Below the pieces are notes generated by a model. That model had not been told where the DNA came from. It ran no database searches and saw only the letters and a program-made list of their open reading frames with translations. The position numbers were made by a program, and so were the translations under genes. From contig JAUVYB010000011.1 of NCBI GenBank assembly GCA_030603275.1, positions 1-39,399 of the forward strand: 39,399 bases of DNA. The letters are read 5' to 3'. Positions 5,786-34,725 of this stretch are shown here, in pieces; position 1 is the stretch's first letter, and every line of letters starts with the position of its first letter. The stretch is from Deltaproteobacteria bacterium. GTDB lineage: Bacteria; Chloroflexota; Dehalococcoidia; Dehalococcoidales; BS750m-G39.

Positions 5786-6820
5786 ATGGCCGTTTTCCTG
5801 AACTTACTACAGGGTGGATGGGATGCGCTCCTTGCGTACCTCTCAGTGCATGTGCTCACCTGCCTCGTGCCGGCCTTCTTTATAGCCGGGGCTCTTGCTG
5901 TGTTCATCTCCCAAGCCTCAGTGATAAAATACTTCGGTCCAGGAGCTAAAAAGCTCTTGTCTTACAGTGTTGCTTCGGTTTCAGGAACTATACTGGCCGT
6001 CTGCTCCTGCACCGTGCTGCCGCTTTTCGGCGGTATCTATAAGCGGGGCGCTGGCATTGGCCCTGCGGTGGCATTCCTGTACTCAGGCCCGGCAATCAAT
6101 GTCTTGGCTATAGTCTACACTGCCCGTATCCTCGGCTATGACCTGGGTTTAGCCAGGGCTATTGGTGCTGTCGTCTTTGCTGTCGGCATTGGCCTGATTA
6201 TGGCTCTCATCTACCGTAAGGAAGAGTCGCTCAAGGATTCAGCCGCCTTCGATGCCCTGGAGGCCGACCCATCCGCCAAGCCCTGGTGGCAGCAGGTTGT
6301 CTTTTTCGCCGTAATGGTCGGTATACTGGTATTCGCCGCGTCACAGAACTGGATTGCCACCGGCATACTGCTGACATCCCTGGGAATAATCCTGTGGCGC
6401 TGGTTTACCAGGGGTGAAATCGGCATATGGATGAAGGAGACGCTGCGCTTTGCCCGCCTCATCGTGCCCTGGCTGCTAGTTGGCGTGTTTGCCGCGGGAA
6501 TCATCACCACCTTTGTACCTCAGGACGCTGTCACCAGCTGGGTAGGCGGTAATAGCCTCTTTGCCAACTTCATCGCTTCCTTCCTTGGGGCATTGATGTA
6601 CTTTGCCACCCTGACCGAGGTACCCATCGTCAGCGCCTTTATGAACCTGGGCATGGGGAAGGGGCCGACGCTGGCACTCTTACTGGCTGGACCAGCACTC
6701 TCACTGCCCAATATGCTGGTTATCCGCAGCATCATGGGCACCAAAAAGACACTTACGTATATCAGTCTGGTGGTGGTATTTGCCACTCTCTCCGGTTATA
6801 TTTTTGGGCTAATAGCTTAG
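5786..6820 (+). CDS. ArsP-type permease (DUF318 family)
   Basis: A multi-pass inner-membrane permease of the ArsP/DUF318 family, whose studied members export trivalent organoarsenicals or other thiol-binding metals. The 344 residues contain about ten hydrophobic segments. A conserved cysteine loop [18 protein letters not shown] sits near residue 75, followed by [18 protein letters not shown] second half repeats the permease pattern after a hydrophilic loop near residues 145-165 ([17 protein letters not shown] further on). It lies between arsR and an ArsE-like thioredoxin gene, which supports an arsenic role. The substrate is inferred; related permeases near other metal regulators exist. Confidence 0.8.
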
Positions 6821-29850: not shown

Positions 29851-29927
29851 CGGGGTGTAGCGCAGCCTGGTAGCGCACCTGAATGGGGTTCAGGTGGTCG
29901 CCGGTTCGAATCCGGCCACCCCGACCA
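29851..29927 (+). tRNA. tRNA-Pro (anticodon GGG)
   Basis: A complete 77-base cloverleaf. The acceptor CGGGGTG pairs with CACCCCG, the D stem is GCGC/GCGC, and the anticodon stem CCTGA/TCAGG encloses loop ATGGGGT (anticodon GGG). The variable loop is TGGTC, and the T arm is GCCGG-TTCGAAT-CCGGC. The CCA end is encoded. Bases are consistent at every stem position. Confidence 0.97.
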
Positions 29928-32579: not shown

Positions 32580-32730
32580 TCTATCACACTGCAGTCGGCT
32601 GTTACAGGATTTGGTTCATGAAAGCATATCTTTCCGAAATCCCAGAATCTCGTCGATAGGCTAACTTTGTTTTATCCTCTTCACATTGTGGGCAACTTGC
32701 TAAAAAGGAACACTCCAGCCCACTACCCAA

Positions 32731-32765
32731 AGGTCGTTGGTTCGAATCCAACCCCCGCTACCAAA
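32731..32765 (+). repeat. tRNA 3'-end fragment, direct repeat copy 1
   Basis: AGGTCGTTGGTTCGAATCCA plus the remaining acceptor strand and CCA: variable loop, T arm (GTTGG-TTCGAAT-CCAAC), acceptor strand CCCCGCT, A and CCA. No matching 5' half (AGCGGGG or a wobble form) is found upstream. The 35 bases recur exactly at 33167-33201, as expected for attachment-site remnants of an element that integrates in tRNA genes. Confidence 0.8.
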
Positions 32766-32773
32766 AGAAGATG

Positions 32774-32806
32774 AGGCAAGCTAAATAGGGCTTGCCTTTA
32801 GTTTTG
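32774..32806 (+). terminator. intrinsic terminator after tRNA fragment 1
   Basis: AGGCAAGC, an eight-base loop and GCTTGCCT, followed by TTAGTTTT. It sits where a tRNA terminator would. Confidence 0.75.
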
Positions 32807-32949
32807 CTTCTGAAGCAAGAATACCGGTAACTCTAACTTAAAAGGTGGTATCCCTTTTGAGGGCAGGTCAATTCACCTTCATATATTGATACTTCTAAAG
32901 ACTAAACTCAAAGTACAAATATGTTAAATAACACTGTAGGAGAAGGGGC

Positions 32950-33129
32950 ATGAAATACCGAGTTCACCGATTAGATGTCCGTATGACGAGGGACCAGGTC
33001 AGGCTAGAGCAATTCCTGAATAACTTGGATGGTGAGGTCATAGCGATAATCCCGAACATTACTGTTCAGGTTCCTACTTACTGGATCCACAAGGTGGATT
33101 TCCTCCTCATCGTAGAGAAAGTAAGCTAG
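32950..33129 (+). CDS. small unrecognised protein (59 residues)
   Basis: A 59-residue frame beginning MKYRVHRLDVRMTRDQ and ending DFLLIVEKVS. AGGAG lies eight bases before the ATG. Alternating hydrophobic residues suggest a small alpha/beta fold (strand, helix, strand, strand); there is no signal or membrane helix. It lies between the two tRNA 3'-end repeats and may be the only surviving cargo of a lost element. I recall similar short proteins in related metagenomic genomes but cannot name a family. Confidence 0.6.
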   Translation: MKYRVHRLDVRMTRDQVRLEQFLNNLDGEVIAIIPNITVQVPTYWIHKVDFLLIVEKVS

Positions 33130-33166
33130 TAAGTCCAAGGGATTTGAGCAAGAACTGATAAGACTG

Positions 33167-33201
33167 AGGTCGTTGGTTCGAATCCAACCCCCGCTACCAA
33201 A
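33167..33201 (+). repeat. tRNA 3'-end fragment, direct repeat copy 2
   Basis: Exact 35-base copy of 32731-32765, 436 bases downstream. The preceding bases (AACTGATAAGACTG) do not form an anticodon stem or D arm, so no whole tRNA is present. Confidence 0.8.
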
Positions 33202-33209
33202 TATAAAAT

Positions 33210-33240
33210 GGGGCGAGATAAAGTCTCGGCCCCTCTCTTC
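33210..33240 (+). terminator. intrinsic terminator after tRNA fragment 2
   Basis: GGGGC-GAGA, loop TAAAG, TCTC-G-GCCCC with one bulged base, followed by TCTCTTCTT. It differs in sequence from the terminator after copy 1. Confidence 0.6.
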
Positions 33241-33536
33241 TTGACCTCTATGGCTATACAAAAGCCTCTTTTGTGACCCAAGCAACAATTCAAGCTATTG
33301 TGCAAAGTAGAGAGGAAATATATCAAGCAAAAAGGCGGGATGCCACTTGCCCGATTACAGCTGAGGCTACCCACACGGGAGGGGGGAGAAATACATTTAA
33401 ACCAGTTGGAAAGAAGCTTAAAACCACTGGTACCTCAGTTTCCCCTGGCAGAGCCCGCCCACCACGAAATCTTAGTAACGCCCTACTGCCTCTTGAAGTT
33501 CCTTCAAGTAAGCGCAGGATATTTACTCCTTTTGTA
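33241..33536. other. spacer without a supported gene
   Basis: Overlapping open frames exist on both strands (about 60-95 codons), but none has a convincing ribosome-binding site, a recognisable motif or a plausible composition. It may be decayed sequence between the tRNA-end repeats and the lysR cassette. Confidence 0.5.
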
Positions 33537-33603
33537 TATTTATATACATCGTAGTACGGCAGGGGGCAAGTTTCAAGAGTAAATTTTCTATGATGTCATA
33601 GAT
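33537..33603 (+). repeat. lysR-flanking inverted repeat, left arm
   Basis: 67 bases matching the reverse complement of 34659-34725 at 60 positions. It includes the dyad CTATGATGTCATAG and TATACATCGTAGTAC. It ends one base before the lysR stop codon. Confidence 0.9.
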
Positions 33604-34658: not shown

Positions 34659-34725
34659 ATCTATAATATCATAGAAAACTTGCTCTTGCAACTCGCCCCC
34701 TGCAGTACTACGATGTATATAAATA
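34659..34725 (+). promoter_or_regulatory. lysR-flanking inverted repeat, right arm / probable LysR operator
   Basis: CTATAATATCATAG is a CTAT-N6-ATAG dyad of the T-N11-A type bound by LysR regulators, about 110 bases upstream of the lysR ATG. A second dyad (TAC-N6-GTA) lies 35 bases further toward the transporter gene. The whole 67-base block is repeated in inverted orientation beyond lysR. Confidence 0.7.

Follow-up and report, generated by a model that had tools for sequence, protein, structure and literature searches.

How did two identical tRNA 3' ends come to lie within half a kilobase of each other on a contig that lacks the corresponding tRNA gene? The window, that is, the whole 39,399-nucleotide stretch of DNA analyzed, is contig C29 of the organism's own genome (G000; relatives are numbered from G001 onwards and loci carry L numbers). 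At exactly the coordinates given in an earlier note on this DNA, it contains an exact 35-bp direct repeat (32731-32765 and 33167-33201, + strand, start-to-start distance 436 bp) comprising a T arm, the acceptor strand and ACCA. A 35-bp exact repeat within 3 kb is far beyond what chance can account for. ARAGORN and Rfam predict no complete tRNA at either copy, the latter at its gathering threshold across the whole window and at E<=1 between 32500 and 34900, and the sole tRNA that both find in the window is a tRNA-Pro at 29851. Full tRNA genes at the two sites are thus rejected at the thresholds used, and the 5' half is missing from both copies, as the note had described.

A search of the full genome for an intact tRNA with this 3' end identified the parent as the initiator tRNA-fMet (CAT) on contig C15 (42315-42389, minus strand), outside the window as anticipated. 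A 33-mer of the repeat occurs in four exact copies in the genome, namely in the fMet gene, twice in the window and once on contig C33, whereas the fMet 5' half occurs only once. Copy 1 matches the parent tRNA region at 100% over 45 nt (query 146-190, window 32725-32769). The fragments therefore reproduce exactly the 3' end of a tRNA gene in their own genome and are devoid of its 5' part, as are scars of tRNA- or tmRNA-targeted islands. Named matches of the repeat are mostly Dehalococcoidia or Chloroflexi, and the genome itself appears to be one of the Dehalococcoidales.

Copy 1 sits upstream of a divergent gene. The genus-specific motif CTCCAGCCCACTACCCAAAGGTCG (32713..32736, +), a possible recombinase-side end sequence, runs into it, and a hairpin with T-run (32773..32806, +), called by the terminator rule and by alignment, follows it. 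This terminator, type T_A, is also found behind the intact fMet gene of G009 and behind displaced ends in G006 and on G000:C15. A different terminator had been proposed behind each copy, which holds for the clear hairpin and T-run of copy 1, but the hairpin 3' of copy 2 (33210..33233, +), recognized by sequence, has a weak, broken T-run and fails the terminator rule. The interval between the copies is a mosaic without a recognizable element. It contains the right-end remnant of an IS3-type element (32805..32870, +; last transposase codons and end sequence), identified by sequence matches and by a related frame at L226 that corresponds to rve_3, and a block (32900..33149, +) with 91% identity to G059:C1:70369-70611, a segment in which no fMet fragment was found. 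A 59-aa frame (32950..33129, +) without Pfam or PHROG family has a relative in one other of the 156 genomes of the order (G059), and is doubtful as a gene, since that relative is interrupted by a TAG stop. Viral contigs yielded 56 pattern matches to the 59-aa protein, none of them confirmed, and no match to the 32-base repeat. The frame had been described as the only gene between the copies; it is present, but it may not be a gene, it shares the interval with the transposase remnant, and longer antisense frames overlap copy 2. The latter (33004-33288 and 33126-33374, minus strand, 94 and 82 aa) span copy 2 and read GGWIRTNDLSL and VAGVGFEPTTSVL; we take them to be antisense-tRNA peptides, which are common spurious annotations.

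Several dispersed repeats crowd positions 33258-33603. Repeat R2 (33258-33302) is a genus-level sequence with an inverted-repeat core, of which further copies lie on contigs C44 and C21, and another ~415 bp upstream of a decayed fMet end in G002:C61. Repeat R3 (33322-33459) is dispersed in many copies throughout Dehalococcoidales, with the ends GGCGGGATGCCACTTGCCC and CCCCTGGCAGAGCCCGCC and a variable middle. Only one of the 22 pairs in its predicted fold carries a change on both sides, so that a conserved RNA is unsupported; Rfam returned no family for R1 or R3, and R3 may be either a miniature transposable element or an RNA not yet described. A 67-bp inverted repeat, 90% identical, flanks lysR (33537-33603 and 34659-34725); its single match in the corresponding stretch of G033 is located between lysR and the ABC operon.

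The neighborhood of the parent gene indicates how such 3' ends may arise. In G009, the intact fMet gene is followed by T_A and an isochorismatase gene. On G000:C15, the order is fMet, another terminator (T_C), a metallo-beta-lactamase-fold gene, GCCCCCGCTAGCA, T_A and isochorismatase, and the T_A and leader stretches of both genomes align from the acceptor end onward. Judged from this alignment, the two arrangements are the before and after of one insertion, matching the displacement of the old 3' end that integration at a tRNA gene is predicted to cause. An empty site is hence available for comparison at G000:C15; for the window site, the relatives compared offered none.

To place these loci in a wider frame, we surveyed 61 genomes (the own genome and 60 relatives) for the fMet 3' end and 5' half, each with at most two mismatches. 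This search recovered 76 3' ends and 46 5' halves. They form 41 pairs that make up genes; the orphans that remain are 35 3' ends, spread over 23 genomes, versus five 5' halves, two of the latter within 50 bases of a contig end where the 3' half would come next. The orphan count is a lower bound, since decayed ends (G006:C28:8648, G000:C15 and G000:C33:7815) were overlooked. In all 15 cases in which an orphan and an intact fMet gene occur on one contig, the orphan is downstream of the gene, on its strand, at distances of 0.65-45 kb. The other 20 are on other contigs or in a genome without detected intact fMet gene and hence yield no distance to it; the window copies, too, are on a contig other than that of fMet. 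ARAGORN, run on 20 loci, reported one tRNA-Met only, which is the intact gene of G019 and not an orphan. A separate tally of 74 named loci with a 25-mer (at most three mismatches) gave 83 matches, 69 in intact tRNA-Met genes and 14 in fragments, and is not added to the survey because some of its genomes overlap with the 61.

The orphans are also alike in where their resemblance to fMet ends. Among 23 orphans compared with the fMet of their host, the acceptor 5' strand, D arm and anticodon 5' stem have identities of 0.24-0.31. Further 3', the values are 0.44 for the anticodon loop, 0.64 for the anticodon 3' stem, 0.74 for the variable loop and 0.82 for the T 5' stem; from T loop to CCA, the search pattern itself accounts for part of the conservation. 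Identity thus drops to chance 5' of the anticodon arm. All five T-stem pairs are formed in 15 of 15 intact genes and in 20 of 35 orphans, with fewer than five in the remaining 15, and a crossover in the T loop is indicated by hybrid T stems such as those of G004:C44 and G027. The ends in G022 and on G004:C12 retain the whole anticodon loop. A terminator follows within 75 nt in 16 of the 35 orphans, compared with 35 of 700 windows drawn at random from the same loci; in the other 19 it is absent or undetected. One gene, one tRNA end and one terminator stand clearly together in G006, and to some extent on G000:C15 and in G009. As an order-wide rule, codirectional units of one gene each were rejected: in only 20 of 35 orphans does the first frame upstream read in the same direction, although frames within 120 nt upstream are codirectional in ten cases and opposite in two. 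Among the relatives, G004 and G008 alone have homologous units (86% over 657 nt); the others have nothing in common but the tRNA end and short stretches. Eight similar VOC/glyoxalase-type frames, the first of which was checked in Pfam, follow one another in a single unit between fMet 3' ends at L052 (G028:C16, 4649-8621).

Recombinase genes accompany several of these ends. On G022:C151, the fMet gene is directly followed by a tyrosine integrase, cargo and a distal 3' end, forming what looks like a complete element with full anatomy, and on G004:C12 a tyrosine integrase lies 1.3 kb beyond an fMet fragment. In both G047 and L120, a large serine recombinase reads towards fMet, its frame running into the tRNA 3' end, and a similar hairpin stands behind the CCA. 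L143, a locus labelled Patescibacteria, harbors a tyrosine-integrase fragment between two fMet 3' ends; its contig is probably misbinned. No integrase was detected with PF00589 on C29 or C33, the nine tyrosine-integrase matches of the own genome all lying elsewhere, and the single PF00239 match is on C35. With no integrase on its contig and hence none within its bounds, the window unit is a relic rather than an intact island.

Taken together, copies 1 and 2 are probably displaced 3' ends of the initiator tRNA-fMet, left by site-specific integration at that gene, an origin for which relatives and the C15 locus of the own genome give good support. The suggestion that an integrase acting at a tRNA gene had produced the repeats is thereby strengthened: the parent has been found, fMet 3' ends that lack a 5' half have the properties of integration products throughout the order, and neither of the two findings that the earlier note named as refuting it, a complete tRNA at a copy or a fixed arrangement, was obtained. 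In the mechanism that we propose, an incoming circle with its own copy of a tRNA 3' end would recombine inside the tRNA, in the T loop or anticodon arm. The chromosome would retain a complete tRNA whose 3' end and terminator come from the circle, the former 3' end and its terminator would be pushed downstream, and repeated rounds would generate tandem 3' ends with short units between them. The window pair, whose contig now shows no linkage to the tRNA, would have the same origin; rearrangement, or else insertion at a secondary site, would then have relocated it, any recombinase would have been lost and the IS3-type element would have invaded. We regard the window copies as relics, two candidate scars that need not be the two ends of one element.

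The route to C29 is where a rival account has most force. Copying or movement of the C29 and C33 fragments by ordinary rearrangement or transposon activity (IS3-type or other dispersed repeats), with the tRNA ends as passengers of old pieces of an fMet array, is possible, albeit somewhat doubtful; it contests the route alone and is compatible with the remainder of our explanation. The IS3-type remnant between the copies and the crowd of dispersed repeats at 33258-33603 speak for it, as does synteny. The oxidase pair of the window is 85-88% identical in G006:C31, where LysR is absent and DNA homology ends at window position 32592, beside copy 1 on the oxidase side; in G033, the LysR and ABC genes are linked without the oxidase. 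The window fragments therefore lie in a region of broken synteny, and the break beside copy 1 counts for the integration origin as well; the arrangement is not fixed among relatives, a comparison that the earlier note had called for. As the note remarked, the repeats do stand between the lysR operator and the oxidase genes, but oxidase and LysR are unlinked in G006 and G033, so that an ancestral unit interrupted here is not in evidence. On C33, homology to G002:C35 likewise ends at 6294, 44 bases before the repeat. Neither C29 nor C33 is syntenic with fMet neighborhoods save for isolated genes, both sit at synteny breaks, and chromosomal linkage of C29 to the fMet neighborhood was not found by synteny. 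Moreover, a serpin gene that belongs to the fMet array in G006, G009 and G010 is found on C33 in G000, where it is flanked by fMet-like ends: a fragment with T_C precedes it and a decayed tRNA-like end follows. Against random breakage stands the motif CTCCAGCCC directly upstream, which is common to four loci whose further flanks differ and thus suggests a site-specific end. In the form CTCCAGCCCRCKACCC, the motif precedes four fMet ends and nothing else across 31 genomes, each of the four belonging to genus g1: copy 1 and the C33 copy in G000, and one decayed end each in G001 and G002. It may mark the recombinase-side end of one element family.

That the 3' ends and hairpins were instead kept as useful terminators or RNA 3' ends, and spread by use, not integration, is very unlikely: terminators follow 16 of 35 orphans and the ends stand directly behind gene stop codons in G006 and on G000:C15, but the upstream frame is codirectional in 20 of 35 only, copy 1 lies upstream of a divergent gene, and ends are decaying in several places. 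Degenerate complete tRNA or tRNA-like genes can practically be dismissed, as, despite an intact T arm and acceptor strand, ARAGORN and Rfam detect none at the thresholds used and the match to fMet in 23 orphans is at chance 5' of the anticodon arm.

Displaced fMet ends left by integration have close parallels in the same bacterial class. The ssrA-specific islands of Dehalococcoides show tandem direct repeats of a structural-RNA 3' end downstream of the gene, up to 100 kb from ssrA, with tmRNA as target and reductive dehalogenases often among the cargo; a large serine recombinase occupies the left edge, the repeat at or in its gene, 15 islands lack an integration module, and a 15-bp motif precedes the repeats (McMurdie 2011, PMC3146451). 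The tandem 3'-end repeats, islands without integration module, large serine recombinase and upstream motif, to which we liken the motif of genus g1, are shared with the loci described here; the differences are the initiator tRNA as target, units of 0.4-2.3 kb, and fragments in G000 on contigs not linked to the tRNA. According to further sources, ssrA islands also occur in Dehalogenimonas (PMC13390414), integration leaves partial tRNA genes (PMC9897764), and repeated 3' fragments of one tRNA gene, tRNA-Ala, populate high-plasticity regions of Dehalococcoides, some at inversion boundaries, in larger islands with dehalogenase and phage-related genes (PMC2764846). Cis-mobilizable elements and tandem accretion (terms from the sections of PMC3146451 that cite Pavlovic 2004) offer another parallel: the window unit, with possible att-like ends and no recombinase found, may be of this kind, and differs in its length of 436 bp. 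Initiator tRNA is unmentioned in the passages drawn on from PMC3146451, PMC2764846, PMC13390414 and PMC9897764. Literature searches turned up no work on such arrays at the initiator tRNA in Dehalococcoidia, which is not proof of absence.

A bolder reading, which we consider improbable at present, is that the initiator tRNA anchors a gene-capture array in Dehalococcoidales: very small, often single-gene units would be added behind fMet, each bounded by a tRNA 3' end and terminator, units such as the serpin would be re-inserted elsewhere by a recombinase acting in trans, and the window copies would represent one such unit. Isochorismatase, serpin, metallo-beta-lactamase-fold, acetyltransferase and tandem VOC genes would be examples. 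If true, the system would be integron-like, with an essential tRNA gene as attachment site. Integron cassette arrays consist of small units, often of one gene, with one repeat type, and new units enter beside the anchor, features that the fMet loci share. Here, however, the repeat is a tRNA end, codirectional single-gene units account for 20 of 35 cases and are thus not general, and the integrase scan covered the broad PF00589 family. The one-gene, integron-like reading fits one family and fails as a general rule.

Most likely, the window repeats reflect a known kind of event at an unusual target and in small pieces, namely scars of DNA inserted at the initiator tRNA gene. This explains the fMet 3' ends found away from the tRNA gene in these genomes, and extends the tandem structural-RNA-gene repeats of Dehalococcoides to the initiator tRNA and to many Dehalococcoidales families. 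Small acquired units can be traced in this way as well, among them integrase-less ones that recombinase-based island finders would miss.
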